A model generated the notes under the pieces. The model was not told the origin of the DNA. It did not search any database and saw only the letters and a program-made list of their open reading frames with translations. From Flavobacterium agri (GTDB lineage Bacteria; Bacteroidota; Bacteroidia; Flavobacteriales; Flavobacteriaceae), in the NCBI RefSeq assembly GCF_013401995.1, contig NZ_JACBJI010000001.1, positions 1 through 64,000 of the forward strand: a stretch of DNA of 64,000 nucleotides. The letters are read 5' to 3'. Positions 1-12,756 of this stretch are shown one piece after another. The first letter of the stretch is position 1, and the number at the start of each line of letters is the position of its first letter. Made by a program: the position numbers and the translations under genes.

Positions 1-2
1 CG

Positions 3-101
3 CTCCTTCTGCAGCATCCCGAAAGGATAGTAATCAAAAAGATTCCAATCGATGATTATCAGTGGCTTGATAAGACTTTTGGAAACCCGAAAAAGTGTTG
101 A
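3..101 (+). CDS. C-terminal end of an unidentified protein (5' end outside the window)
   Basis: One + strand frame is open from the window edge to a TGA at 99-101, encoding about 32 residues that end DKTFGNPKKC. The other two + frames are closed within the first 60 bases. The tail is too short for any family to be recognised. It would end about 180 bases before the first gene of the secretion cluster. It could also be a chance open frame, since it is only about 100 bases long. Confidence 0.35.
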   Translation, partial: LLLQHPERIVIKKIPIDDYQWLDKTFGNPKKC

Positions 102-208
102 AATACCAAAAATCGACTTAAAAAAACAAAGAACCTGGACGAATGCAGCGTCGTAGGAAATGTATGAAAATTTAACGGTTTCCCAAACGTTAATTATCTC
201 TTAAAAAG

Positions 209-216
209 TATCTTTG
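209..216 (+). promoter_or_regulatory. Possible -7 element of the secretion cluster promoter
   Basis: The sequence TATCTTTG fits the Bacteroidota -7 consensus TAnnTTTG and lies about 70 bases before the ATG at 285. No clear TTTG -33 partner is visible at 17-23 bases upstream, so the call rests on the -7 box and on position at the head of the gene cluster. Confidence 0.4.
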
Positions 217-284
217 CAGCAGTCGGTTACGATGTCATGAAACGCTGTCGCCCGATTTCCCAACACCAACCACCAAACGACATT

Positions 285-977
285 ATGAAATACGCTATAC
301 TGGCGATACTTTGTTCGGTCCACGTCTTGAACGGTGATCCGTATTCCATCAAACGGGTATCCGACGCCAATTTCCGATACGAATTCCACACCACGGCCAA
401 AACTACCGCCATTCGCGAGCACAAGACGTACTTTTGGTTTCGCGGCGGTGCGATCCACAGCGCAAAAGGTGGTGCCGCCGGAGAGCTTCTCGATCAGGAA
501 TACTCCAAATTCTACCACAGCAACCAATTGGCCGAGAAAGGTAATTTCAACAAAGGGCTGCAAACGGGACGTTGGAAGTCATGGTACGAGAACGGCAACC
601 TGCAATCCACGCAATATTGGAACAACGGACTCAGGTCGGGCATGTACATGCTGTACGACCAAAACGGTAACCTATCCGAAAAAGGCAACTACAAAAGAGG
701 TGAGAAACACGGTGCCTGGGTACGTTATGCAGTCAAGGACACACTCTGGTTCAAGAACGGTGAGCAATATACCAAAGCAAAACCGCTGACCAAGGCCCAA
801 AAAGAGAAAGCGAAAGCCGACAAAGAACAGGAACGCCAGCAAAAACAGCAAGTTAAGGAACTACAAAAACAAAAGAAGGCCGCCCTAAAAGAAACGGCGG
901 CCGCCAAAAATTCCGATACCGCGAAAAAACCGGGCTTCTTCAAAAGGTTGTTTTCCAAGAAAGAAACCAAAAAATGA
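285..977 (+). CDS. Exported MORN-repeat protein at the head of the secretion cluster
   Basis: The protein has about 230 residues from the ATG at 285, which opens with MKYAILAILCSVHVLNG, a short hydrophobic export-type segment. An upstream in-frame ATG at 237 would add 16 polar residues before this segment and is less likely. The middle (about residues 75-150) carries three or four MORN_2-type units of the form G.Y..G...G.W..Y..NG.L, as in the 'toxin-antitoxin system YwqK component' family. These are usually structural or binding repeats. The C-terminal third is rich in K, Q, E and A, probably a long charged helix, and ends in KRLFSKKETKK. The gene overlaps the next one by ATGA, so it is probably translated together with the pilus-like genes. 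Its function is not known. A role as a periplasmic or surface accessory of the machine is inference from gene order alone. Confidence 0.7.
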   Translation: MKYAILAILCSVHVLNGDPYSIKRVSDANFRYEFHTTAKTTAIREHKTYFWFRGGAIHSAKGGAAGELLDQEYSKFYHSNQLAEKGNFNKGLQTGRWKSWYENGNLQSTQYWNNGLRSGMYMLYDQNGNLSEKGNYKRGEKHGAWVRYAVKDTLWFKNGEQYTKAKPLTKAQKEKAKADKEQERQQKQQVKELQKQKKAALKETAAAKNSDTAKKPGFFKRLFSKKETKK

Positions 978-2185
978 TCCGCGCGAACAGCCTGATATAT
1001 GCGATTTATATCTGCCTGATCGTCGGGATCCTGTGCGGGGCGCTGTTGCTTGTCGGCAGCCTTCACGAACGTCTCAACGTTTTTTACGGGCTGCAGTCCG
1101 AACTGTACCTCGACAACCTTTCCACGACGAACTTCGCGCTGGGCAACAACTTGGAGCCTGTCGACGTTCCCGAACAAGAAGACGGGATACGATCGGAATA
1201 TACCACTCGCATGCACGGGCTTATCGAGGTTCTCGAGGTGCGGTCGATCCGCGATCGGGACACGGTGGCCTCGGCTTATCTGACGGGTCGCCGTGACGAT
1301 TCGCCATTGGCTTTGTACACCGCCGATTTCTCGGACATGCTCAACCTGACCGGAAACGTGAAAGTGTCAGGAGACATGAAGCTGCCGCTCGGGCGTACCA
1401 AACAGGCCAATATCAACCATCAGAAGAACGAGATTGACCTCTCGGGCAAGGTCATGCCGTCCGATCGCTTCCTTCCCGAGCTGGCGGACAAGTGTGCCGC
1501 ATTCTACGAGGAATCCCGCACATGGACGTCACAACCGCTTTCCAATGTACCCAAAACGGGCGATTTGTTGTATTACCATTCTTTCGAGTCGCCGCGCCTA
1601 ACCGTATTGCTGCCGAGCCCTTTGCTGCAAAAAGCGATATTCAGGGGCAATTACGCACTCGTGGCCCGGGATTCTATCGTGGTGGATGCCTCGACGGTTC
1701 TCGAAGACGTGCTGCTCATCGCTCCGAAGATCGTCATTGGCGATAATTTCCGCGGGACGGTGCAGGCATTCGCGACGCGTTCGATCAGGGTTGGGAAAGA
1801 GGTGCGTCTGGATTATCCATCGGTACTTTGCGTACGCAATACGGGAAAGGAAAAGATGCAGATTGAAACCGGAGATGGTTTTTCGGTCAAAGGCCTTGTC
1901 GTGGTTACGGGCAACGATTTTCTCAACGTAGATAAAGCCCGAATACTGTTTGCCGACGATGCCAGGATTACAGGCACGGTATACTGTTCGGGGACTTTAA
2001 TCGCCAAAGGCAAAATCAACGGAACCGTCTATGCTTCGCGTTTGGCTTACGCATTTGGGGGAACCGACTGGCTCAACTGCCTTGGCGATATCGAGATCGA
2101 TGCCCGAAAACCGAAACAATTTTTAGACATACCGGTATTTTCCGGCCAAAATCACGCGTATGGCATCATCAAGAAAGTATTGTAA
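974..2185 (+). CDS. Membrane-anchored bactofilin-like protein of the secretion cluster
   Basis: This 403-residue protein starts at an ATG that overlaps the previous stop (ATGA). One N-terminal membrane helix (about residues 7-27, IYAIYICLIVGILCGALLLV) is followed by a long extracytoplasmic part. The C-terminal half (about residues 225-370) has short alternating hydrophobic strands with G/N turns (VLEDVLLIAPKIVIGDNF, ARITGTVYCSGTLIAKGKIN), the look of a right-handed beta-helix of the bactofilin/polymer-forming type. The place in the operon, directly before two minor pseudopilins, and the single N-terminal helix are those of GspK or PilX. However, no prepilin cleavage site with Glu at position +5 is visible. 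It may be a lineage-specific replacement for a minor pilin, and that is inference. I do not recognise a named family. Confidence 0.75.
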   Translation: MIRANSLIYAIYICLIVGILCGALLLVGSLHERLNVFYGLQSELYLDNLSTTNFALGNNLEPVDVPEQEDGIRSEYTTRMHGLIEVLEVRSIRDRDTVASAYLTGRRDDSPLALYTADFSDMLNLTGNVKVSGDMKLPLGRTKQANINHQKNEIDLSGKVMPSDRFLPELADKCAAFYEESRTWTSQPLSNVPKTGDLLYYHSFESPRLTVLLPSPLLQKAIFRGNYALVARDSIVVDASTVLEDVLLIAPKIVIGDNFRGTVQAFATRSIRVGKEVRLDYPSVLCVRNTGKEKMQIETGDGFSVKGLVVVTGNDFLNVDKARILFADDARITGTVYCSGTLIAKGKINGTVYASRLAYAFGGTDWLNCLGDIEIDARKPKQFLDIPVFSGQNHAYGIIKKVL

Positions 2186-2486
2186 GGCAAATTCCCTTTT
2201 GGAGTCGGTGATCGCCCTTACGGTGATATCGGTATGCGTCTACATTTCGATGGTCGTTTATGCGCGTGCCTTGTCACATCGCAACAGCGTTTCCTTTTCG
2301 GCTGCATCCAATCGGCTGGCCGAAACGTTTTATTTGTGCGAACTCCACAACGAGGTCGTACGCAAGGACATCAGCATAGAGGAAACCTGGCTCAATACCG
2401 CACTCAAAGAACAGACCGTGATTTTGTCCGACAGTCTCGGCCATGACAAACAGCAACAGACCTTTTATATTTATGACAACCCGTAA
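2160..2486 (+). CDS. Minor pseudopilin (GspI-like)
   Basis: A 108-residue protein whose start codon lies inside the end of the preceding gene. After a 10-residue basic leader comes A-NSLLESVIALTVISV, a class III prepilin signal: cleavage before the hydrophobic stretch, Glu at +5, then about 20 hydrophobic residues. The LLESVIAL core is closest to GspI/PilV-type minor pseudopilins. The remainder is a small periplasmic head of about 70 residues. It would be processed by the peptidase encoded at 4567-5052 and join the tip of the pseudopilus. The residue before the cleavage site is Ala instead of the usual Gly, a feature shared by all three pseudopilins in this cluster. Confidence 0.8.
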   Translation: MASSRKYCKANSLLESVIALTVISVCVYISMVVYARALSHRNSVSFSAASNRLAETFYLCELHNEVVRKDISIEETWLNTALKEQTVILSDSLGHDKQQQTFYIYDNP

Positions 2487-2970
2487 CGCCGTTCGTGCCT
2501 TTTCCGTAGTCGAAGCCATGGTGGGCCTCGTAGTCATGGCTGTGGTCATCGGCCTGGTGTTTGTCGTGTTTTCGATATTGTCGCGCCAGCTGAGCGACCT
2601 GCGTTACCAAAACGAGAAAGTTTCGGACGTGAACCGGCTTTCCTGGGTCATGCAACGCGACATGTTCGGCAGCCGGGAGTTGTCTTACACCGAAGAGCGT
2701 TTGGAATTCAGTGATTACAAAGGTCAATCCGCCTATTTCGAGTTCGGTGATAGCGCTATCGTACGGCATTCCGAGACGTTCGCCGATACTTTCCACATCC
2801 GTCCGATTTCGGTTTTGTTGGACACCATCGGAAACGTATCGGGCAAAAAGACGATGAGCAGGCTGCAACTTGTTTTCGACCTCGACGCACGCGTCGACTC
2901 GTTGCGCTTCTATAAAAATATTTATCCCGCCGAAAGGCTCAATGCGAATCAAGATGTCAATCGACCTTAA
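2473..2970 (+). CDS. Minor pseudopilin (GspJ-like)
   Basis: The start at ATG 2473 is preferred to an upstream in-frame codon at 2443 because it gives the short basic leader MTTRNAVRA ahead of FSVVEAMVGLVVMAVV, a prepilin N-terminus with Glu at +5. The mature protein has about 155 residues, including a soluble head with predicted strands ending in a segment that resembles GspJ-type minor pilins. The gene overlaps the one before it and the one after it, so the pseudopilin pair and GspF are translationally coupled. Assignment to GspJ instead of another minor pilin class is tentative, because the head domain is divergent. Confidence 0.78.
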   Translation: MTTRNAVRAFSVVEAMVGLVVMAVVIGLVFVVFSILSRQLSDLRYQNEKVSDVNRLSWVMQRDMFGSRELSYTEERLEFSDYKGQSAYFEFGDSAIVRHSETFADTFHIRPISVLLDTIGNVSGKKTMSRLQLVFDLDARVDSLRFYKNIYPAERLNANQDVNRP

Positions 2971-4081
2971 TACCTACAAGACGGCGGCTGCGCAAAAAAG
3001 CGTCAGATCTAAACCTGATCAAAAGGCACAGTTGTCCTTATCTAAAGGGTTTTCCGACAAGAAGAAGGAAGTCTTCTACAGGGAACTCGGCATATTGCTA
3101 CGTTCGGGTGTCGATTTCAAAAAGGCCCTCGAAATCGTATCCCAACAGTTCGACAAGAAAGGCGAGCAGGAGCTCATACTCGGGATCAAGAGCCAGATCG
3201 TGCGAGGCAAACGCATTTACGAATCGATGAGGGAAACCGGGCAATTTTCCCCTTACGAATTCTACAGCGTACAGATAGGCGAGGAAACGCGAAAACTCGA
3301 AGAAGTATTGACCGAACTCCAAAAGTATTTCGGGCGCAAAATCGCGATGCGTCGCCAAATCGTGTCGGTCCTCACATATCCGTGCATCGTTATGTTGGTG
3401 ACGCTTTTGGTGCTTTGGTTCATGCTTTCCAAAGTCGTGCCGATGTTCAGCTCGGTTTTCAGACAGTTCGGAGGAGAACTGCCCGCGAGCACCAAATTCA
3501 TCCTGATGCTCTCGCGGCATTCGGGCGCCATGTTCCTTGGCGTATTGCTATTGGCGGCGGGTTTTGTAACCCTGCATTACCTGTACGGCAAGACCGATAC
3601 GTACAGGCGCGTCACATCGGGTATCGCGATACGTATCCCGTATTTCGGGCAGTTGATCCGAAAGATATACATTGCGCGTTTCTGCCAGTCGATGAGCCTG
3701 TTGCTGTCCTCACGCACGACACTGATTACTTCGTTATCGTTGACTTCTAAGATGATACGCTTCTATCCGATAGAGGCGGCAATGCCCAAAATTCGCGAAA
3801 CGATCACCAAAGGCAGTTCTTTTAGCGACAGTCTTCGCGACCATAAGATTTTCGACGGCAAACTCGTCTCCATGGTCGAAGTAGCCGAGCACGTAAATCA
3901 GTTGGACACCATGTTCGCCAGGCTTACCGAACAGTACAATGAGGACATCGGTTACCAGAGCAAGATGATAGGGGTGGTCCTCGAACCGATGATCATCATC
4001 ATCATCGGCATAATCGTAGGCGTGATAATGGTTTCCATGTATGCGCCCATGTTCGAACTCAGCAAAATTATACATACTTAA
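2954..4081 (+). CDS. gspF: Type II secretion / type IV pilus platform protein (GspF/PilC family)
   Basis: From ATG 2954 (MSIDLNTYK) the protein has 375 residues; an ATG at 2942 is an alternative. It shows two T2SSF domains: KKEVFYRELGILLRSGVDF..AL near residue 40 and ARFCQSMSLLLSSRTTLITSL near residue 240. Three membrane segments lie near residues 140-160, 190-215 and 345-368, the last very rich in Ile. GspF/PilC sits in the inner membrane and couples the cytoplasmic ATPase to pilin assembly. The first pair of helices lies after domain 1 and the last at the C-terminus, as in the family. The start overlaps the GspJ-like gene by 17 bases. A strong promoter follows directly downstream, so the transcript may be strengthened from there on. 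Confidence 0.92.
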   Translation: MSIDLNTYKTAAAQKSVRSKPDQKAQLSLSKGFSDKKKEVFYRELGILLRSGVDFKKALEIVSQQFDKKGEQELILGIKSQIVRGKRIYESMRETGQFSPYEFYSVQIGEETRKLEEVLTELQKYFGRKIAMRRQIVSVLTYPCIVMLVTLLVLWFMLSKVVPMFSSVFRQFGGELPASTKFILMLSRHSGAMFLGVLLLAAGFVTLHYLYGKTDTYRRVTSGIAIRIPYFGQLIRKIYIARFCQSMSLLLSSRTTLITSLSLTSKMIRFYPIEAAMPKIRETITKGSSFSDSLRDHKIFDGKLVSMVEVAEHVNQLDTMFARLTEQYNEDIGYQSKMIGVVLEPMIIIIIGIIVGVIMVSMYAPMFELSKIIHT

Positions 4082-4084
4082 AAC

Positions 4085-4114
4085 TTTGTTAAGAATGAAA
4101 AAAGCGTATTTTTG
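4085..4114 (+). promoter_or_regulatory. Consensus Bacteroidota promoter in front of the major pseudopilin gene
   Basis: TTTG at 4085-4088 is separated by 18 bases from TATTTTTG at 4107-4114, a full match to TTTG-N(17-23)-TAnnTTTG. The predicted transcript starts near 4121, about 15 bases before the ATG at 4136. It lies in one of the few real gaps in the cluster. An extra promoter here would raise the amount of the most abundant subunit relative to the platform and minor pilins. Confidence 0.75.
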
Positions 4115-4135
4115 GAACCTTCAACCACAAACATT

Positions 4136-4570
4136 ATGAAGTCCCTGAAATCCAGTTTGAAAAGACGGGTCCGTCATGGCTATGTCAAGGCGTATTCACT
4201 TAACGAGATACTTATCGTGTTGTGCATCATCGGGATATTGTTGTTGCTCGTGTTGCCCAATCAGACTTCGGTAGTCAGCCAAGCCAAATCGATAGAGGCA
4301 CAAGCCATGCTCAACCAGGTTTACGGACTTCAGAAAAGTCATTTTTACCGTTTTTCCAAATATGCGGGCAACCTCGAGGAAATCGGTTTCGAGCAGGAAC
4401 CCACGGTAGATGAGGGCGGCCAGGCCGTATACCGTATCGAGATCGTCGAGTCCTCGGCCAACGCTTTCATGGCGAGGGCTACTGCCGTTTCCGATCTTGA
4501 CGGCGATGGCGAATTCAACACCTGGGAAATAGATTCGAAGAAAATTTTAAGGGAAGTCGTAAAAGATTGA
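4136..4570 (+). CDS. Major pseudopilin (GspG-like)
   Basis: The 144-residue precursor starts at ATG 4136, placed about 15 bases after the predicted transcription start. A 19-residue basic leader (MKSLKSSLKRRVRHGYVKA) precedes YSLNEILIVLCIIGILLLLV, a prepilin segment with Glu at +5 and a long hydrophobic helix ending in Pro. The C-terminus holds DLDGDGEFNTWEID, an acidic loop like the calcium-binding loop of GspG. This, and the dedicated promoter, point to the major subunit of the pseudopilus. It is followed by a TTGA overlap with the peptidase gene. The Ala before the cleavage site is unusual for the family but consistent within the cluster. Confidence 0.85.
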   Translation: MKSLKSSLKRRVRHGYVKAYSLNEILIVLCIIGILLLLVLPNQTSVVSQAKSIEAQAMLNQVYGLQKSHFYRFSKYAGNLEEIGFEQEPTVDEGGQAVYRIEIVESSANAFMARATAVSDLDGDGEFNTWEIDSKKILREVVKD

Positions 4571-5052
4571 AAGCACTTTTTGTTTTTGGTCTGGTGGCCT
4601 GCCTGGCCCTTATTTTCATCCAGGACCTCAAGTACAGGAAAATACACGTTGCGGCTCCTCTGTCGGTTTTCATTATGGCCGAGGGAATCAAAGGGTTTTC
4701 CTTGCATTGGCAAAGGATAGTGGCGGTCAACCTGCTTTTCCTGCTCGTCGTGATGGCTGCCATGGTCGCCTACATGAGCATCAGGAAGAAAGCGATACTC
4801 AACCCGTTCGAGCATTATTTCGGGCTGGGCGACCTTTTGTTCTATGCCGCGATAACACCTCTGTTCCTGCTTACCGATTACATCGCGTATTTCATCGGCT
4901 CGATGCTGTTCGCGCTTTTGCTCAGTACCGTTTTCCGAAAACGCATCGCACAGGACAACATCCCGTTGGCTGGGTTTTCGGCCGTGTTCCTCATAGCCGT
5001 TTTGGGTTGCGACCTGCTGTTGCCGTTCCCGAAAATAATTTTGCCTAACTGA
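4567..5052 (+). CDS. Short type 4 prepilin peptidase (A24 family)
   Basis: A 161-residue membrane protein with six or so hydrophobic segments. Both catalytic aspartates of the A24 family are visible: D20 in FIQDLKYRKI and D89 in FGLGDLLFY (the GxGD motif). The N-terminal methyltransferase half with its CxxC zinc motif found in PilD is missing, so this is the short peptidase-only form. It would cleave the leaders of the three pseudopilins encoded just upstream. The start is a TTG that overlaps the previous stop (TTGA), and no ATG is available before the first helix. Confidence 0.85.
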   Translation: MKALFVFGLVACLALIFIQDLKYRKIHVAAPLSVFIMAEGIKGFSLHWQRIVAVNLLFLLVVMAAMVAYMSIRKKAILNPFEHYFGLGDLLFYAAITPLFLLTDYIAYFIGSMLFALLLSTVFRKRIAQDNIPLAGFSAVFLIAVLGCDLLLPFPKIILPN

Positions 5053-5055
5053 AAC

Positions 5056-6456
5056 ATGGACGAAATCATCATAACCGAAGACAACCGCCACGCCATTTCA
5101 AACTACATGGCGAATTCCTACAAGATACTGCCTCAGGAAGTGTATCCTGAAGCGTTGGTGCTGTATTGTGCCGAAAAAACGGACTACACGGATATCACCG
5201 ACGAGCTCGAGTTGCTATTGGGCAAGAAAGTGACGTTCACTCCGTATCCTTCCCATCTTGTGGAAAAGGCATTGTCGCGGTATTACCGCCAGGAGCGCCA
5301 AGAATTATCGAGGACACTTAATCTCGAGAAAGGCGATTTCCTCGAGGAATTGCTTGCGGAGGCAAAATCGTTGAAAAGCAGCGATATCCATTGCGAAGTG
5401 TATGAAAATTCAGCGCGTGTCAGGTTGCGTGTGGACGGCCAGTTGCTCGACCGTTACAAACTCGACAGGGACAGTTACCAGGAATTGGTCAACAAGATCA
5501 AGATCATGGCCAAGCTCAACATCACAGAGAAGAGGTTGCCGCAAGACGGCAGGATCACGACACCCGCATTCGATATCCGCGTTTCCATATTGCCTACTTT
5601 GTTCGGCGAAAAGATTGTGATGCGCCTTCTGGGACAGGACGCCTCGAAGATCGACCTCGATACTTTGGGGTTCGAACCCGAAGCGCTCAAAGAATACCTA
5701 GAGGCCATCCGCAAGCCCAACGGCATCATCCTGATCAGCGGTCCTACCGGATCGGGCAAGACCACGACCCTGTATGCCACATTGCGTCTGCTCAACGATT
5801 CAAGGAGAAACATCCTTACTGTGGAAGACCCGATTGAATACATCCTCAAAGGCATCAACCAGGTGCAGCTCAAAGAAGATATCGGGCTTACATTTTCGGC
5901 GGCGTTGCGTTCGTTCCTGCGCCAGGATCCCGATATCATCATGCTGGGCGAAATACGCGATGCCGAGACCGCGCTGATGGCCATTCGTGCCTCGCTCACC
6001 GGACACTTGGTCTTGTCTACCATACATACGAATTCGGCCTTGGGAACGGTTTCACGTCTCGTCGATATGGGTGTGCCCGCGTATCTTATAGCCGAAACGC
6101 TCAACCTTTCGGTGGCGCAAAGGCTCATCAGGAAACTTTGTCCCGACTGTAAAGAAGAAATACCGTACCAACCCGAAGATTTCCCTGGCGGATTCCGCAT
6201 CCCGTATGAACCGGATCGGCTTTTCAGGGCAAAAGGGTGCAACAATTGCTTCCATACCGGATACAAAGGCAGGCGCGCGTTGTATGAAATCGTGCGCATC
6301 ACGCCACAGGTATCGGATGCGATCAAGACTGGCGCGCTCGATACTTTTCTAGAAAACAAAGAAGAATACAAATCGCTATCCGAAAAGGCTTTCGACGTGC
6401 TCGGCGCGGGCGAGACCTCTCTCGAAGAAATCTACTCCATATTACTCAACGCCTGA
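5056..6456 (+). CDS. gspE: Assembly ATPase of the secretion/pilus machine (GspE/PilB family)
   Basis: The 466-residue cytoplasmic protein powers pseudopilin assembly. It has a short N-terminal N1E-like domain, then the Walker A motif GPTGSGKTTTLY near residue 230, the Asp box around VEDPIEY, Walker B DPDIIMLGEIRDAETA near residue 292, and the His box LVLSTIHTNSA. Two zinc-finger pairs, CPDC near 362 and CNNC near 396, are diagnostic for GspE/PilB and absent from PilT. The gene follows the peptidase by 3 bases. No PilT-like retraction ATPase is found in the cluster, which favours a secretion-type pseudopilus over a retractile twitching pilus. Confidence 0.95.
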   Translation: MDEIIITEDNRHAISNYMANSYKILPQEVYPEALVLYCAEKTDYTDITDELELLLGKKVTFTPYPSHLVEKALSRYYRQERQELSRTLNLEKGDFLEELLAEAKSLKSSDIHCEVYENSARVRLRVDGQLLDRYKLDRDSYQELVNKIKIMAKLNITEKRLPQDGRITTPAFDIRVSILPTLFGEKIVMRLLGQDASKIDLDTLGFEPEALKEYLEAIRKPNGIILISGPTGSGKTTTLYATLRLLNDSRRNILTVEDPIEYILKGINQVQLKEDIGLTFSAALRSFLRQDPDIIMLGEIRDAETALMAIRASLTGHLVLSTIHTNSALGTVSRLVDMGVPAYLIAETLNLSVAQRLIRKLCPDCKEEIPYQPEDFPGGFRIPYEPDRLFRAKGCNNCFHTGYKGRRALYEIVRITPQVSDAIKTGALDTFLENKEEYKSLSEKAFDVLGAGETSLEEIYSILLNA

Positions 6457-6458
6457 TT

Positions 6459-8369
6459 ATGATAAAAAAACTCCTGCTCGTTGTTTTGTTTGCTTGCTCG
6501 TGCTCATTGTCCGCCCAACAGGACGTGCTCGAGCTCAACAGGCGTTTCGATGATTTCGCCAAGCAGAAGAAGGAACTCAACAACGTGATCAAGCTCGACA
6601 TTTCGGGTCTTTCGCTATATGATCTTATCCTTTCCATAGCCGAGAACAACCGTTTGAACGTAAGTGTGGACTCGGACCTGAACATTCCCGTGGTCAACAA
6701 CTTTTACGACGTCACGGTAAAGGACGCCTTCGTGTTCCTGGCCGCCAAATACGATCTGGAAGTCGAGTTCATGAGCAACATCATCATCTTCCGCAAGCGC
6801 AAGGAAGTCAAGTTGCCCGAGAAGAAACTACCCAAAATCATCGACGTGAAATACAACAAGGAGAACGATTTCCTGTCGGTGCATCTTGAGAACGATACAT
6901 TGGAAACCGCGGTACAGGCCATCGTAGACGCCTCGGGCAAAAACATCATCATGTCGCCAGAGGTCAGGAGCCAGCGCGTATCGGCCTACATATTGAACCG
7001 TCCGTTCGATCAGGTCGTGGAAATGATCGGAAAGTCCAACGGGCTGCAATCGTACAAAGACGAAACCGGCGTGTTTTACTTTGAGAAGCAGACACAAAAA
7101 AACACAGAGACAACATTCAGCGACCGCAATGGCCAAAAGCCGAAATCGAAAAGCGGCGGCGGCACGGCACTGGGTACGTTCGAGGTCACGGTTCTCGAAA
7201 ACGGACTGCTCAGCGTCAGAGCCAACGCGGCCGATGCGGCCGAACTGCTTACCGATGCGGCCGAAAAGCTACATGTGAATTATTTCATCTACAACAAACC
7301 CGAAAATGAGAAAACCTCGCTGATGGCGACGGGCATTACGTTCGACGATCTTCTGGAGCATATCCTCAAGGGTAAGAAATACTCGTACAAGAAAGAAGGC
7401 AACTTTTATCTGATTGGCGAACATGCCACAGAAGGTTTGCGCGCTACAGAAATGGTGCAGCTCGAGAACCGTTCGATAGAACTGGTGTTGGCTTCGCTTC
7501 CGAAAGTGTTTTCCGAAAAACTCGAGCTCAAGGAATTCAAGGAACTCAACGGATTGATCGTATCGGGGCCGAGAAGTGTGATCGACGAGCTCAAGATATA
7601 CCTCAAGCAAGTCGACAAGGTCGTACCTCTTGTGCAGATCGAGGTCATCATCGTACAGTACAAAAAAGCATATGGCATACAGACCGGTATAAAATCGGGT
7701 ATAGACAAGTCGAATGAGAAAGTGACCAGCGGCTTGCTTTTCCCGACCACAGACGTGACGCTCAACAGTTCGTCGGTCAACAGTCTCATCGATGCCTTCA
7801 ACGGATTGGGATTCATAAAACTCGGCAAGGTGACCGACGCCTTTTACCTGAACCTTCAGTTCCTCGAGAACAATTCGCTGCTCAAGATAGAGTCCACGCC
7901 TAAAATAGCGACGCTCAGCGGACACGAGGCTACGCTTTCGATAGGAGAGACCAATTATTATTTTGAACAGAACAATCAATTGATAAACAGCGGGTTGGGG
8001 AATAACGTGCTGCAATCCGGTTCATGGAAGCAGACCGACGCGAACCTCAAGGTCTCGATCATGCCTTTCGTGTCGACCGATGAGAACGTGACCTTGAATA
8101 TTCAGGTAGAAAAGAGTTCCTTTTTGGGAAGGGCTGCCGAGACCGCTCCTCCGGGCAAGGCGACCCAGAATTTCCAGTCGCTGGTCAGGGTCAAAAACGG
8201 CGAGATGGTACTCTTGGGCGGATTGGATGAATTGTCCAAGGAAAATACAGGATCGGGTACGCCTTTGATTTCGCGCATACCGATCATCAAATGGTTCTTC
8301 AGCAGCAGGAACAAGACCAAGTCGAATTCCAAACTGCACCTGTTCATAAAGCCGACGATCGTATATTGA
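6459..8369 (+). CDS. gspD: Secretin, outer-membrane channel of the type II-like system (GspD/PilQ)
   Basis: A 636-residue protein with a cleavable signal (MIKKLLLVVLFACSCSLSAQ). The first part holds a small STN/N0-like domain (about residues 45-110, LILSIAENNRLNVSVDSDL), followed by further N-domains. The C-terminal secretin domain ends with the family signature: VRVKNGEMVLLGGL, then GTPLISRIPIIKWFFSS and LHLFIKPTIVY. Multimers form the gated pore through which substrate or pseudopilus passes. A low-complexity linker rich in N, K, S and G lies near residue 225. A lipobox reading (LFAC) is possible but has Phe at -2, so ordinary signal peptidase cleavage after SLSA is preferred. The stop overlaps the next start by ATGA. 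Confidence 0.93.
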   Translation: MIKKLLLVVLFACSCSLSAQQDVLELNRRFDDFAKQKKELNNVIKLDISGLSLYDLILSIAENNRLNVSVDSDLNIPVVNNFYDVTVKDAFVFLAAKYDLEVEFMSNIIIFRKRKEVKLPEKKLPKIIDVKYNKENDFLSVHLENDTLETAVQAIVDASGKNIIMSPEVRSQRVSAYILNRPFDQVVEMIGKSNGLQSYKDETGVFYFEKQTQKNTETTFSDRNGQKPKSKSGGGTALGTFEVTVLENGLLSVRANAADAAELLTDAAEKLHVNYFIYNKPENEKTSLMATGITFDDLLEHILKGKKYSYKKEGNFYLIGEHATEGLRATEMVQLENRSIELVLASLPKVFSEKLELKEFKELNGLIVSGPRSVIDELKIYLKQVDKVVPLVQIEVIIVQYKKAYGIQTGIKSGIDKSNEKVTSGLLFPTTDVTLNSSSVNSLIDAFNGLGFIKLGKVTDAFYLNLQFLENNSLLKIESTPKIATLSGHEATLSIGETNYYFEQNNQLINSGLGNNVLQSGSWKQTDANLKVSIMPFVSTDENVTLNIQVEKSSFLGRAAETAPPGKATQNFQSLVRVKNGEMVLLGGLDELSKENTGSGTPLISRIPIIKWFFSSRNKTKSNSKLHLFIKPTIVY

Positions 8370-9550
8370 TGAAACCCATATTCTCCAAAATATTCGGCTT
8401 GGACAAGATCAGGGTCATAGGCGTTTCCGGAACGGGAGACCGTCTCGATTACCGCGTGCTCGTTGTCCACAAGAAGAACAATGAGTTGTTGGTGGTTTCG
8501 AGTCACGGCTATACCGATTTTTCCGAAATCACGGCAAATTGCGAGCGCGACCTTCCCGTTGTACTGGTAATCAATGTCAAAGGCGTGCTGTATCGGAAGA
8601 TCGACCTTAACGACCAGGACGATCTTACCTGGCAACGCAGCATCGATTTCGAAAGCCTTTCCTATACGGGTTACCAAACCGAGGACGCGTTGCTGTTCAT
8701 GGGTTTTTGCCGCAAGAACGTAGCCGAAGACATCACGGCCACGTTCACCAAGTCAGGTTATGCGATACTTGATTTGTTTACGGGAGTTTTCCATACGGCT
8801 TTATTGGCGCGCGCGGTCAACCGTGATGAAATTGCCATAGACGATATGCGCCTGCACTTCGACAACGGCAGGCTTATCGGCTTCGGCAAACAGGAAGCGT
8901 CCGCAGAAACCAGTTATGCCATAGGGACTACCCAAATAAAAGGCGCTTTCCTTCCGTTGTATGCCGCTGCAGTTGTACATTTTGCGCCCGCTTCCGAAAT
9001 AGTAAAGGACAACAACGGCAATTTTTCTACCGAAGAACTGCGCTACAAGAAGGCTTTCCGGTATCTCGGTATCTCGATGCTGGTTTTTTTCCTGGTGTCA
9101 TTGGCCGCAAGTTATGCGCTTACCCAATATTACCTTGGGCAGAACGCCCAACTCGACATGTACAACCTCTATTCCGACAAGGCGTACCGCGAAATGCTCG
9201 AAATGGAGAAGGAGAACGGAGAAAAACGCACCATCGTTAACCAATCAGGTATACTGTCGGACAAGTTCCTGAGTTTCTACGCCTACGAAATCCTTCAAGG
9301 AGTGCCTCCGGGTGTGCAGCTTAACGAACTCAAGGTGAATCCGTTGCGTTATGCTCTAGACGACAAGAAACCCGTGGAATTCGAACAAAAAGTGATCTAT
9401 CTCAAAGGCTACCTGTCCAACGACGCCGGGTTCAACCAATGGGTGCAGACGCTCAAGAAACTCGATTGGGTAGCCGAGCTGCGGCTTCAAAGCCTGTCAA
9501 GGGACAAAGGCCAGCACAGGATTTTCGAAATTAAAATAGCCGTGAAGTGA
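8369..9550 (+). CDS. GspL / PilM-PilN-like inner-membrane assembly protein
   Basis: From ATG 8369, which overlaps the secretin stop, the protein has 393 residues. An upstream in-frame codon at 8291 would lie within the secretin gene. Residues 1-220 form a cytoplasmic domain with the strand pattern of the actin-like GspL/PilM fold (VIGVSGTGDRLDYRVLVV near the start). A single membrane helix follows near 235-255 (LGISMLVFFLVSLAASYAL), then a periplasmic part with a coiled segment and a small alpha/beta domain as in PilN (ILQGVPPGVQLNELKVNP, YLKGYLSNDAGFNQWVQTL). This PilM-PilN fusion layout is that of GspL. It would connect the ATPase to the periplasmic parts. Sequence similarity is weak, so the call rests on topology and position. 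Confidence 0.75.
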   Translation: MKPIFSKIFGLDKIRVIGVSGTGDRLDYRVLVVHKKNNELLVVSSHGYTDFSEITANCERDLPVVLVINVKGVLYRKIDLNDQDDLTWQRSIDFESLSYTGYQTEDALLFMGFCRKNVAEDITATFTKSGYAILDLFTGVFHTALLARAVNRDEIAIDDMRLHFDNGRLIGFGKQEASAETSYAIGTTQIKGAFLPLYAAAVVHFAPASEIVKDNNGNFSTEELRYKKAFRYLGISMLVFFLVSLAASYALTQYYLGQNAQLDMYNLYSDKAYREMLEMEKENGEKRTIVNQSGILSDKFLSFYAYEILQGVPPGVQLNELKVNPLRYALDDKKPVEFEQKVIYLKGYLSNDAGFNQWVQTLKKLDWVAELRLQSLSRDKGQHRIFEIKIAVK

Positions 9551-10068
9551 TGTTCGAAAAATACACTTACAAACAGAAACTGTTGGCCCTGATGGCCATT
9601 TTCGTACTGATGGCGGCAACAGCCTACAAAAGGTCGTACCGCAACCTGTTCGAGCTCTATTTTCAAAATGCCGAACTCAAGGCAAAAGCAGTTGACATCA
9701 AGAAAAAATCGGCTGAATTCGCGAGAATCAGGAAAGACAAGCAAACTTTCGATGCCTTGTTGGGAAGCGAAAAAGGAAGTAAAGAGCTGGTTCAGCAGAA
9801 TATCATGGCCTTCACTTCGAGGCGCGGCGGGGTTTCGATTCAGGAATTGGCTCCCATCCATTCGTTTTCGACCGAAGACTACCAAGCCAACACCAACCAG
9901 CTCGACGTGACCGGCTCGCTCGACGGTATGTTGCGGCTCGCCTATGGTTTCGAGACCGATTTTCGCGATTCGAGGCTGTTCGCCCTGCATTTTTACAAGA
10001 CCAAATTCAATATGAGGGAAACCTTGCACCTTAAACTATTTTTCCAGAATTATGAAAGCAATAAATAA
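9550..10068 (+). CDS. GspM / PilO-like protein
   Basis: The ATG at 9550 overlaps the GspL-like stop. The 172-residue product has a short cytoplasmic N-terminus, one membrane helix near residues 12-25 (LLALMAIFVLMAATAY), a coiled coil near 40-75 (AELKAKAVDIKKKSAEF) and a small periplasmic domain with a ferredoxin-like strand/helix pattern. This is the layout of GspM and PilO, which pair with GspL/PilN. Its position right after the GspL-like gene repeats the order gspL-gspM or pilN-pilO in Proteobacteria. The end overlaps the next gene by 17 bases. Confidence 0.72.
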   Translation: MFEKYTYKQKLLALMAIFVLMAATAYKRSYRNLFELYFQNAELKAKAVDIKKKSAEFARIRKDKQTFDALLGSEKGSKELVQQNIMAFTSRRGGVSIQELAPIHSFSTEDYQANTNQLDVTGSLDGMLRLAYGFETDFRDSRLFALHFYKTKFNMRETLHLKLFFQNYESNK

Positions 10069-11008
10069 GATTGTACTGATCCTGCTCGGCTTGCTGTGCT
10101 TTTCCTGCGAGGACATCATCGAAGAAGATATTTCGGACGACACGGTCACCGCAGTTTTCCCTTCGCCGGGAACGGTCGTGCAAAGCAACGTGGTCACGTT
10201 CCAATGGCAGTCGCTCGAAGGGGCCGACGAATACCGCGTGCAGGTCTACTCCTCGAACCAGGTAATTGTGGCCGACACGCTTTTTTCAGGCACTCAGGCT
10301 ACATTGCCCATGAATCCCGGGCATTACCAGTGGCGCGTACGAGGTGAGAATTCGGCATATGAATCTTCGTATTCGTTCCCGAACGCGTTCGATGTCGTCG
10401 AATCCGATGACCTGAGTCAACAGCAGGTTATCCTTACGGCACCTGCGCCCGACCACCTGACCAATGCGCCCGATTTCATCCTTTCGTGGGAAGAACTTTC
10501 TGCTGCCGATTATTACCGCCTTGAAATACTCGATGTTACCAATTCGAGCAGCCTGGTCTATTCCCAGGACAACATTACCCAAACATCGTTGACGTTGAAC
10601 ACTACCATGATCGACCAGGAAGGAGAATACAAATGGCGGGTGAAAGCCGTAAACGCCGACGGTAGTACGGTATTCAGCAGCAGAAATTTCTCGCTCGACA
10701 TGACCGTACCCAACGCCCCCCAAAACAGTCTTCCCGCAGACGAAGCCAATTTCGAGCCAGCCCAAACCGTGAGTTTCAGTTGGACGCAACCACAGGATTC
10801 AGGTGTGATCCAGTCTGCGATTTCCTATATCATAGAAATATCGACAAACCAAGGCTTCACAAACATTATCCAGTCCTCGAGCGTATCTGCAACGAACTTC
10901 CAGCAGGCTTTTGCCAATACGGGCGACTATTACTGGCGCGTCAAGGCAAAAGATGCCGCCGGAAACATCAGCGTTCCCGGACCCGTATATAAATTTACCG
11001 TAGAGTGA
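10052..11008 (+). CDS. Lipoprotein with three fibronectin type III-like domains
   Basis: The 318-residue precursor begins with a lipoprotein signal (KIVLILLGLLCFSC followed by EDIIEEDISDD). The acidic residues right after Cys suggest sorting to the outer membrane or cell surface. Three repeats of about 90 residues follow, each with a W...Y.V.V pattern: VTFQWQSLEGADEYRVQV, FILSWEELSAADYYRLEI and VSFSWTQPQDSG. Each ends in YQWRVRG, YKWRVKA or YYWRVKA, typical of Fn3 domains. It lies between the GspM-like and GspC-like genes and overlaps both. No standard T2SS operon that I know of has such a gene at this place. It could be a secretin-associated lipoprotein (pilotin-like), a substrate, or a surface adhesin of the system. 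Confidence 0.8.
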   Translation: MKAINKIVLILLGLLCFSCEDIIEEDISDDTVTAVFPSPGTVVQSNVVTFQWQSLEGADEYRVQVYSSNQVIVADTLFSGTQATLPMNPGHYQWRVRGENSAYESSYSFPNAFDVVESDDLSQQQVILTAPAPDHLTNAPDFILSWEELSAADYYRLEILDVTNSSSLVYSQDNITQTSLTLNTTMIDQEGEYKWRVKAVNADGSTVFSSRNFSLDMTVPNAPQNSLPADEANFEPAQTVSFSWTQPQDSGVIQSAISYIIEISTNQGFTNIIQSSSVSATNFQQAFANTGDYYWRVKAKDAAGNISVPGPVYKFTVE

Positions 11009-11541
11009 AAGACAAGAAACTCTTCAGCCGCTTGCTCGCCCTAGCTGTAGCCGGTATCTGGATAGCCGTGGGCTACAAATACGTGAGCCGTTTTTTCTTT
11101 GAGGGCGAAACCGTATCTCCCCAAAATTATGCGGCATCCGCAAAAGAAGTGAGCCTACCGCATAAAGACACTTTCAAGATGGAAACGTTGAGGCGAAACC
11201 CGTTCACGGGAAACATGGAAACGCCCAGGATCAGCACCCGAAGCGCAACGGTTTCTTACAGAAAGACAAGTGCAGAGCGCAAGCCTATCGTACGCGCGCC
11301 AGAGATGAAATTTCCTGAGATCGAATACTTCGGTTTTGTGAAATCGAACAACGGAAGCTCCGAATTGGCCATGCTCAAAATAAATGGCAAGATGTCAAGG
11401 TTGTATTTGAATGGCAAATCTGATGGGATCACCGTGAGGAAAATCGCGAAAGATTCTGTCGTCGTGCAATGCGGGAAACAGAAAAAAGTGATCGGTCGCG
11501 CCGGTGTCGTCCAAAAAAAGCCGGCGATCGCAAAGAAATAA
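11005..11541 (+). CDS. GspC / PilP-like bitopic protein
   Basis: The start is a GTG overlapping the previous stop (GTGA). The 178-residue product has one N-terminal membrane helix (about residues 9-26), a Pro/Ser/Thr-rich linker, then a small basic beta domain: IEYFGFVKSNNGSSELAMLKING near 105-130 and KIAKDSVVVQCGKQKKVI near 147-164. This repeats the pattern of the HR domain of GspC and of PilP, in which short strands around G.V......A.L..NG contact the secretin. RNPFTGN before the beta domain resembles the RDPF/RNPF motif common in GspC. It is the last gene of the cluster. The next gene is on the other strand 11 bases later. Confidence 0.75.
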   Translation: MKDKKLFSRLLALAVAGIWIAVGYKYVSRFFFEGETVSPQNYAASAKEVSLPHKDTFKMETLRRNPFTGNMETPRISTRSATVSYRKTSAERKPIVRAPEMKFPEIEYFGFVKSNNGSSELAMLKINGKMSRLYLNGKSDGITVRKIAKDSVVVQCGKQKKVIGRAGVVQKKPAIAKK

Positions 11542-11552
11542 AAGCTCGGAGT

Positions 11553-12179
11553 TTATTCCTCGCTTAAGATATAAGCCGTACGGATCACGTCGAGATTGAC
11601 GAAAGTACGCATGAAGTCAGGTCGGTCGGCGTACATATTATCGGCCTCGGGCATAGTGCGTTCGCCATAACCCGAATACAATTCCTCTACGACTTCCATG
11701 CCTTTAGAGACTTGGCCGAGCGCGGGATAACCCTTTACGCCATCCACGAATGTCGTATCGAGTCTGATATTGTGGTTGAGGTTGATGAACAGCTCGAGGT
11801 CTCGCGTTTCCTTGCCGTATCGCGCAAAACTGATTGTGCCTTTCTTGTTGCCCAAACGGACGGGTTCATCGGGGATTTTTACCGAACGCCATTGTTCCAT
11901 GACCGCCACATCGGTATTTCCGAACTGGGCGACGTAATTCGGCACGACGCGGTAAAACACCGAATTGTCATAATAACCGTGCGAAATCAACTGGTACAAG
12001 CGATCTGCGGCCGCCGGAGAATTGCTTCGTCTTATCTCGATCTCGAAATTGCCCTTGGTGGTTTCGAAGCGGGCCGAGAAGGTTTCGGGCGCTTTTTCTG
12101 TCGTCCATTCCTTTTCGAATTTCGATCGGGAACAAGCGATAAACGTAAAGACCAAAAGAAGCAATGTAATTTTTCGCAT
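11553..12179 (-). CDS. Cyclophilin-type peptidyl-prolyl isomerase, lipoprotein
   Basis: From the ATG at 12179 the product has 208 residues and starts MRKITLLLLVFTFIACS, a lipoprotein signal. An in-frame codon 22 residues upstream would hide this signal. The cyclophilin domain shows FETTKGNFEIEI, AADRLYQLISHGYYDNSVFYRVV and GTISFAR, matching the start of the bacterial cyclophilin fold. The normally conserved catalytic FHR is FYR and the GTGxGG loop is degenerate, so activity may be low. It would act on proline bonds of envelope proteins, and a second isomerase of another family is encoded 700 bases away. Confidence 0.85.
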   Translation of the reverse strand: MRKITLLLLVFTFIACSRSKFEKEWTTEKAPETFSARFETTKGNFEIEIRRSNSPAAADRLYQLISHGYYDNSVFYRVVPNYVAQFGNTDVAVMEQWRSVKIPDEPVRLGNKKGTISFARYGKETRDLELFINLNHNIRLDTTFVDGVKGYPALGQVSKGMEVVEELYSGYGERTMPEADNMYADRPDFMRTFVNLDVIRTAYILSEE

Positions 12180-12249
12180 CGGATTTTCGTAAAATGAAAT
12201 TGCCGGAAAACCTCGTTCGAAGCATTCCGGCAATATAAAAATCAATCGA

Positions 12250-12756
12250 TTATTTCGCGCTGACCGGAATCGTCAATTTGTCCCAGGTCAATGAAAAACC
12301 TTTTGCGTTTACTTTGTATGTGAGCTTTTCGGTTTTTTCCTTCTCGCTCACACCTTTCACTTTCACGCGCAATTGGTCGTCAGACTGCTTGTAATCGTAA
12401 GCTCCCCATTGTTTGGATGTCTTATTGAAAATGACCGTCGCGCTGTTGTCTTTTTCAGGTATGATGAAAAACGAATATTTGCCTGCAGGCAGTTTTTGTC
12501 CTTCGATCGTCAAATCCTGGTTCGTCTCGAAAGTCGTGGCTTCGTTCGCACCGGCTCTCCAAACCTCGCCGTAAGGAACGAGTTTGCCCCAAATTTCGCG
12601 ATCGCGTACCGAAGGCGCACCGTAATTGATCGTTACCGTCGCATTTCCGATTTTTCCAGTTGCGGTTTCCGCCGGGCTTTTAGGTTTTTCCTGAGCTTGG
12701 ATGTTGGTCGCCAAAAGTGCTACGAAAAGCAAGATGGCGGTTTTTAGTTGTTTCAT
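12250..12756 (-). CDS. Secreted DUF2911 family protein
   Basis: The start at ATG 12756 gives 168 residues with a signal peptide (MKQLKTAILLFVALLATNIQAQ). The mature part has the DUF2911 pattern: GNATVTINYGAPSVRDREIWGKLVPYGEVWRAG, then ATTFETNQDLTIEGQKLPAGKYSFF, given here as two separate stretches of the family core. A -7 box lies 22 bases upstream of the start. DUF2911 proteins are widespread in Bacteroidota, probably periplasmic, and of unknown function. The gene ends 70 bases before the cyclophilin gene, on the same strand. Confidence 0.85.
   Translation of the reverse strand: MKQLKTAILLFVALLATNIQAQEKPKSPAETATGKIGNATVTINYGAPSVRDREIWGKLVPYGEVWRAGANEATTFETNQDLTIEGQKLPAGKYSFFIIPEKDNSATVIFNKTSKQWGAYDYKQSDDQLRVKVKGVSEKEKTEKLTYKVNAKGFSLTWDKLTIPVSAK

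Follow-up and report, generated by a model that had tools for sequence, protein, structure and literature searches.

A pseudopilus machine of Flavobacterium agri and its relatives as the probable exporter of split RHS toxins

What does a complete pseudopilus machine move across the outer membrane of a flavobacterium? The question is raised by the first 64,000 nucleotides of contig NZ_JACBJI010000001.1 of Flavobacterium agri (hereafter, the window), where 13 plus-strand genes (g1 to g13) at positions 285–11541, mostly overlapping (intergenic gaps of −44 to +54 bases), encode one complete pseudopilus/secretin machine with parts of the GspC/D/E/F/G/I/J/L/M/O types and without a retraction ATPase. 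An earlier note on this DNA had rightly recognised the cluster, counting about 12 genes, had thought a full second secretion system worthy of attention, and had called its substrates unknown. The system is indeed present and had already been published (Wang 2017, PMC5553014; Denise 2019, PMC6668835): it is the “Bacteroidetes T2SS” (type II secretion system) which Wang 2017 describes in Cytophaga hutchinsonii and lists for Flavobacterium johnsoniae and three others. There was no agreed substrate for this system. Judging from sequence, a strong candidate can now be put forward: a toxin of the RHS type split over two chains, here called A and B. We consider it probable that the machine is an exporter of the pilus superfamily dedicated to such two-chain RHS toxins.

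Machine and toxin genes were compared in two genome samples. The family sample holds 199 genomes from 198 genera (about one per genus), in which the machine was called by a relative of GspE; all 38 relatives share at least 50% identity and no other genome matches at E 1e-60. The RHS core (TIGR03696) occurs in 72 of these genomes, that is, in 38/38 with the machine and in 34/161 others (one-sided Fisher test, 4e-21). The phylum sample comprises 395 genomes, 32 of which have a machine-type GspE at E < 1e-90, a cut-off set by eye: here, the RHS core is present in 32/32 machine genomes versus 110/363 others, and the domain DUF6443 in 27/32 versus 31/363. For the window’s genus within the latter sample, the counts are 8/8 versus 4/16 for DUF6443 and 8/8 versus 9/16 for the RHS core. 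As four genomes are common to both samples, there are 66 distinct machine genomes, all with the RHS core. These co-occurrence statistics ignore kinship; taking one genome per genus lessens the weight of shared descent and does not remove it. No earlier report of the association was found in the literature searched, the coverage of which mostly excludes subscription journals, and the search for DUF6443 found no paper; the link of a known machine to RHS toxins is new here.

Genomes with only other GspE/PilB types served as a control. They show no enrichment (RHS core in 27/112 versus 83/251), and neither A nor B was found near any of eight loci of those types. The latter (L046–L053, with frames of 440–883 amino acids) were considered as the same machine and discarded, given the lack of an adjacent g2 relative, of A/B and of RHS enrichment. 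These loci stem from other families of the phylum, and a second GspE-like gene lies nearby in four of the eight.

Full-length RHS genes beside the machine are mostly paired, A upstream and B next. The A protein, of about 1000–1800 codons, has an apparent Sec signal, a YD-shell start (pattern NI.IPL....PI.LSYH..GI.V...ASWVGLGW.LN.GG.I.R) and, often, YD repeats at its end; B combines a Sec signal, DUF6443, YD repeats, the RHS core and a variable C-terminal end. All six B proteins scanned have the RHS core above cut-off, and the Pfam scan detected an HNH nuclease domain at the variable end of one of them (L142). Small open reading frames (ORFs) often occur 3′ of B. Fused A–B chains exist, of 2721 (L039) and 2257 codons (L156); in close relatives of the window, B is giant (3686–3919 codons).

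A profile for A (A3), built from 14 sequences, with 10 of the 38 machine genomes as suppliers, detects A in 38/38 machine genomes (28/28 after leaving out the profile-source genomes), in 3/34 RHS-positive genomes without the machine and in 0/39 with neither, the last being 20 of the 127 machine-less, RHS-negative family genomes and 19 genomes of the phylum sample. The 38 genomes have 40 machine loci, and at 34 of them A and GspE share a contig and are no more than 10 kb apart; gene number and genome size predict 0.54 such loci, and the maximum in 200,000 simulations was 6. Leaving out the ten profile-source genomes, in which the stretches were chosen because RHS genes lay nearby, the count is 23/29. 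In some loci A is co-oriented with a machine gene and follows it at short distance, about 80 bases behind GspE (L030, and L031 if measured from the likely start), 134 bases behind M (L152) or 146 bases behind F (L147), with L025 likewise within some 80–146 bases; in L156, the fused A–B gene is found between the G and the tip pilin genes. Overall, A or B is present in 21 of the 32 phylum stretches (L014–L045) and in 51 of 80 named loci, examined with up to 10 kb a side and drawn from Flavobacterium, Aquimarina, Kordia, Flagellimonas, Crocinitomix and others. A occurs in 30 of these 80; the RHS core as sole marker identifies only 26, and it was the A profile that raised the count to 51.

Two established routes were weighed as carriers and set aside. 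The type VI secretion system (T6SS) carries RHS proteins in other bacteria. Its TssC protein (PF17541) was found in 8/38 machine genomes and 14/161 other family genomes, and not in the window’s genome; it too is associated with RHS (17/22 versus 55/177), more weakly than the machine. With only 8/38 machine genomes having a T6SS by this one TssC model, we rejected it as their RHS carrier. The type IX secretion system (T9SS) was rejected as the A/B carrier since no C-terminal sorting domain occurs in the six B and three A proteins scanned, to which this evidence is limited. The window also encodes, on the minus strand at 14470–18822, a 1450-amino-acid protein with near-identical tandem repeats, in which the same search did find a T9SS sorting domain, of type B (TIGR04131, 110.7 bits), so that the organism encodes T9SS cargo besides the machine; A and B proteins lacking sorting domains in such an organism fit a separate route.

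Individual loci offer further observations on the RHS genes. L030 and L031, from one genome, contain two machine-type GspE genes, each with its own A about 80 bases behind; no secretin could be identified within the stretch. Could these be split machines that share parts? In L032 (1–4848, minus strand), a teneurin-type protein with TTR, FN-plug and NHL domains is encoded directly behind, and on the same strand as, the GspC-like gene. The A half of L146 (10375–14523) has an AXH match above cut-off and weak Hint/intein matches near the C-terminus, which suggests that the split toxin might process itself. In two genomes, two small ORFs (164–191 amino acids and a lipoprotein-like one of about 204) precede a giant A on its 5′ side (L162, 4610–5765; L167, 17646–18720), and an exported ORF of 227–241 amino acids lies just 5′ of B; these are possible chaperones or carriers.

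Several points weigh against a dedicated RHS exporter. Association of A/B with the machine is not transport. In C. hutchinsonii, D, F and G mutants lost growth on cellulose and adhesion, with extracellular proteins nearly unchanged (Wang 2017, PMC5553014), phenotypes which do not suggest toxins; the machine may serve other cargo too. The secretin may be too narrow for a complete RHS shell, in which case the chains might need to pass singly. The perfect count in the phylum sample depends on the cut-off: the next five genomes beyond E 1e-90 would give an RHS core in 33/37, and the RHS-core match of genome G219 is weak (7e-6). Five machine genomes of the phylum sample (of 32) lack DUF6443 and 31 machine-less ones have it, 27 of the latter having no T2SSE match at E 1e-20; together with the three machine-less genomes that retain A, this means that RHS proteins like these can occur where the machine is absent. 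For at least six of the 32 stretches from the phylum sample, GspE was the only machine part recognised nearby (L030, with G; L031, L033, L035, L037, L039 and L043), and “machine” there stands for GspE alone. Finally, six of the 40 family loci lack an A anywhere up to 25 kb away on their contig: G000, G470, G475, G559, G226 (A is 34 kb off) and G576 (136 kb off), the window’s own locus, at which the contig begins, being included.

Three parts of the machine are beyond doubt by profile: g5 (2942–4081) is the GspF/PilC platform protein (Pfam T2SSF, 1.8e-44, 151 bits), g8 (5056–6456) the GspE/PilB assembly ATPase (T2SSE, 414 bits) and g9 (6459–8369) the D/PilQ-like secretin (Pfam Secretin, 1.9e-34, 119 bits). 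In g8, Walker A is at residue 229 and the two CxxC pairs are at 362 and 395 (CPDC, CNNC); a g9 profile compared with PDB sequences returned PilQ first (3.7e-30) and T2SS GspD at 2.4e-25. The window’s own sequences for the other parts (g7, the pilins, g10, g11 and g13) are weak by profile and gain firmness from relatives or models. Thus, the short prepilin peptidase (O-like) g7 (4567–5052) matches Pfam A24 at E 0.0085, below cut-off. For g10 (8366–9550), a sequence profile found no match at E 1 against the PDB, whereas the fold search did: in the AlphaFold2 model (pLDDT 87, pTM 0.61), the cytoplasmic domain matches GspL/PilM by Foldseek (E 1e-7), and the periplasmic domain, beyond one transmembrane (TM) helix, matches GspL 5hl8 by VIA (Z 10.6, root-mean-square deviation 2.3, 79 residues); its homologue in L034 ends in PilN (4e-8). 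Because the model joins a GspL/PilM-like cytoplasmic to a PilN- and GspL-like periplasmic domain, g10 is, as modelled, a GspL-type fusion with an actin-like and a ferredoxin-like domain. The GspM/PilO-like g11 (9547–10068) has no Pfam match itself, and its L034 homologue matches PilO above cut-off (2.8e-9). GspC/PilP-like g13 (11005–11541) has an N-terminal TM helix and an HR-type domain, with weak matches to GspC 2lnv (0.008) and PilP 2ivw (0.013) in PDB sequences, and below cut-off to NCBIfam GspC_delta (9e-5) and Pfam T2SSC (0.024).

The three pseudopilins with Glu at +5 that the earlier note had listed are all there: I-like g3 (2160–2486; CKA/NSLLE, the slash marking the cleavage site), J-like g4 (2443–2970; VRA/FSVVE) and the G-like major pseudopilin g6 (4136–4570; VKA/YSLNE). 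Profile matches are below cut-off for each of them (ComGE, E 9e-4, for g3; N_methyl, 0.042, for g4; the NCBIfam PilA, ComGC and GspG models for g6), and the N-terminus of the g6 type is conserved across 27 sequences, the window’s own among them. The note’s GspE with two zinc pairs, its GspF and secretin, and its GspL/M/C-like proteins were likewise borne out by the matches above, profiles naming E, F and D directly and the others weakly or, for g11, not at all. The same applies to the absence of a PilT-like ATPase. The genome (3.98 Mb in 39 contigs, 99.99% complete) has three PF00437 matches, and the two places other than g8 score 21.2 and 19.4 bits against a cut-off of 24.9; only g8 passes, and there is therefore no PilT. 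The label “type II secretion” is only partly justified, by the GspE, GspF and GspL features and not by the NCBIfam equivalog models, whose cut-offs were all missed: GspD (114/351 bits), GspE (482/630), GspF (227/424) and GspG (24/89). A promoter and terminator scan of positions 1–12300 gave no more matches than shuffled sequences.

The note had also named three parts foreign to standard T2SS gene sets: a MORN protein, a bactofilin-like protein and an Fn3 lipoprotein. The bactofilin-like protein, g2 (974–2185), is better described as a pilin. A cytoskeletal bactofilin was rejected: the Pfam model reaches 15.9 bits, against a cut-off of 27.9, and a pilin helix occupies the N-terminus. The g2 cleavage site (RA/NSLIY) is like those of the other three pilins; the Glu at +5 is missing. 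Distant relatives begin, for example, with EDGYALASMLLLLVILSF...YAAESG, starts which we take to resemble the PilX/GspK-type pattern; none of four such relatives was named PilX in a Pfam scan. In the AlphaFold2 model (pLDDT 92.9), a 54-residue N-terminal helix is followed by a beta-solenoid head. Foldseek against the PDB ranked ComZ (6qvi) first (E 2.2e-3, probability 0.89, TM-score 0.26), no PDB chain matching at E 0.001. By VIA, the alignment of g2 and ComZ covers 211 residues, all in the solenoid, with Z 12.1, a score tied by ice-binding proteins; because the VIA list holds ice-binding proteins and lyases too, the solenoid by itself says little. ComZ is a pilin that binds DNA; its head is a solenoid, and it is proposed to sit at the tip of the pilus (PMC6561018). 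By its model and the N-termini of homologues, g2 is a pilin, so the cluster has four, of which one is tip-like in make (in the position of GspK/PilX/ComZ), and it would presumably sit at the pseudopilus tip.

The other two stood as recognised: g1 (285–977) encodes an exported protein of MORN_2 repeats with a basic tail (Pfam PF07661, 33 bits, above cut-off), and g12 (10052–11008) a lipoprotein with fn3 matches in three stretches (Pfam, 35 bits) and CEDIIEEDI at its cysteine. They are conserved, standard parts of the machine, not foreign additions. Among 69 of the 80 named loci (the 11 whose retrieved DNA lacks F, D or C were left out), g2, g3, g4 and g7 are present in 69, g12 in 67 (by a profile built from eight Fn3 sequences) and g1 in 61, and the exact order of all 13 genes is kept in 55, in agreement with the expectation that the order, extra genes included, would hold across relatives. 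Other layouts distribute the same genes over two or three blocks (L018; L020; L022 with L147; L025 with L152). In an alignment of 19 proteins of the g12 type, the lipoprotein cysteine is kept and an acidic run such as CDDILEEDI follows in most loci; in this phylum, an acidic run after the lipoprotein cysteine marks surface export.

How might such a machine deliver a split toxin? The operon would build one short, non-retracting pseudopilus on a T2SS-like inner platform (with fused GspL) and beneath a secretin of the PilQ/GspD type. Chains A and B would reach the periplasm via Sec and meet there, presumably forming one shell. The ATPase g8 and the platform protein g5 would polymerise g6 beneath the pilins g2, g3 and g4, and the tip of the growing pseudopilus, the solenoid pilin g2, would push the A/B cargo, both chains included, through the secretin g9; we infer this order of events. 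Proteins g10, g11 and g13 would connect the inner platform with the secretin. At the outer membrane, A/B could be held or received by the Fn3 lipoprotein g12; for it and the MORN protein alike, the role is a suggestion. Such a scheme would also account for the “extra” genes of the cluster. The near-perfect link of machine and RHS genes makes the function of the one and the export route of the other jointly testable, and it points to a route for contact weapons in a large phylum usually discussed via T9SS and T6SS. Sec-exported RHS/teneurin-like toxins without an obvious exporter have been noted, for a set from other phyla, in a 2026 teneurin paper (PMC13018210).

Would a less specialised role serve as well? 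General type II-like secretion of several enzymes or surface proteins, with the RHS pair as one cargo among others or merely co-transferred on the same island, could draw on C. hutchinsonii, where the system affects cellulose-bound outer-membrane proteins and beta-glucosidase (Wang 2017, PMC5553014). The patchy distribution of the machine (38/199 genomes) is also what transferred islands would produce. Nevertheless, co-occurrence in 38/38 and 32/32 genomes extends across several gene layouts, unlike a single shared island, and A is rare (3/34) in RHS genomes without the machine; we find this account unlikely.

Two further alternatives give the pilus tip another function. Teneurin-like A/B proteins could stay on the tip of an adhesive or display fibre, as adhesins or contact weapons that are not released, in keeping with the large beta-solenoid of one pilin, the lack of PilT, the teneurin domains in the protein adjoining the L032 machine and the adhesion lost in C. 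hutchinsonii mutants (Wang 2017, PMC5553014). The short pseudopilin set, the fused platform of the GspL type, the variable C-terminal ends of B and the HNH nuclease at one of six such ends speak for something else, and we hold a display fibre to be quite improbable. A DNA-uptake pilus, with RHS toxins killing neighbouring cells and a ComZ-like receptor at the tip then binding their DNA for uptake, is to our mind very improbable. It would agree with ComZ, a DNA-binding protein placed at the tip by its authors (PMC6561018), being the first Foldseek match of g2; that match is at fold level only, with 10–12% identity, and ice-binding proteins score equally. Uptake is furthermore at odds with a genome without retraction ATPase, and leaves unexplained why A follows the machine more tightly than RHS proteins do generally. 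A dedicated exporter of the split RHS pair thus remains our preferred explanation.

The first 36 positions of the window (1–36, minus strand) encode a possible RHS-core end (...DYYPFGMLQK), cut by the contig start and divergent from the operon; 11 residues scoring 11.3 bits are weak taken alone, and RHS-core ORFs occupy this position in L014, L015 and L017. Elsewhere in the window’s own genome, contig C3 carries an A gene of 2039 codons together with the beginning of a giant B-like ORF, a second A (1145 codons) is on C36, and RHS-core cassettes occur on C36, C13, C17 and C6. The window’s contig (C1) begins a few hundred bases 5′ of the operon, and several named contigs end at the same place; our guess is that repeated RHS cassettes broke the assembly there. 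No 20-mer is shared between the first 110 bases of the window and five compared stretches of the same genome, a comparison that lends this guess no support. On C36 (L164, 2296–8058), an array of short RHS-core C-termini with a small ORF after each looks like a series of orphan Rhs-CT/immunity cassettes. In several Flavobacterium (L014, 15799; L015, 15908; L017, 15699; L064, 2317; L066, 2424; L072, 2402; L141, 2319), RHS-core fragments of about 1 kb, starting from near DYYPFGM, lie divergent beside the MORN gene, with a small ORF behind in the named loci, perhaps marking a recombination landing site next to the operon.

Among the systems described, the nearest is that of C. hutchinsonii (CHU_3191–3202) and F. 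johnsoniae (Fjoh_0611–0622), with which the machine shares phylum, core set and the order F-G-O-E-D-L-M-(one gene)-C (Wang 2017, PMC5553014). The gene between the M and C candidates is unassigned in the available text of that paper (CHU_3192; Fjoh_0621 is not tabled); here, it is the Fn3 lipoprotein gene, a correspondence in position only. Neither the solenoid pilin nor the RHS link is described in that text. In the trees of Denise 2019 (PMC6668835), the Cytophaga system groups with type IVa pili and is viewed as possibly a secretion system derived independently of T2SS, and a columnaris paper lists such genes as partial T2SS and type IV pilus.

With the T2SS (GspC–O), our machine has in common the secretin, GspE with its zinc CxxC pairs, the GspF platform, the fused GspL fold, a GspC-like HR domain, a Glu5-less pilin and the lack of a retraction motor. 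It differs in that no separate GspH-like gene or PDZ domain was recognised in it and in that the major pilin is far from GspG; g2, like the tip pseudopilin GspK, is a Glu5-less pilin, but its fold match is ComZ. Type IVa pili share a secretin, theirs (PilQ) being the nearest in the PDB sequence search, and a PilO-type protein, that of the g11 homologue; the ATPase is nearly equally close to PilB and GspE (471 and 482 bits). Unlike in type IVa pili, PilT is absent from the genome, and PilM- and PilN-like domains are joined in one protein. ComZ, the Thermus thermophilus competence pilin proposed to be at the tip, is, as g2, a large beta-solenoid pilin; with such low identity and modest scores, the likeness is one of predicted fold only.

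On the toxin side, B shares with RHS/YD toxins, the B/C component of Tc toxins and teneurins an RHS core above cut-off and a variable C-terminus, and no SpvB Pfam match to the Tc toxin TcB subunit was seen at E 0.01 in seven A proteins scanned. In TcB/TcC, the YD shell is split over two chains, as it presumably is in A and B. What sets the latter apart is that both chains start with an apparent Sec signal and that their genes are linked to a pseudopilus machine. A bolder proposal, which we advance more tentatively than that of a dedicated exporter, is that the machine represents a distinct type of secretion system: a pseudopilus machine derived from type IV pili independently of the proteobacterial T2SS, devoted to Sec-routed RHS toxins in two halves, and possibly the Bacteroidota counterpart of RHS delivery by T6SS.

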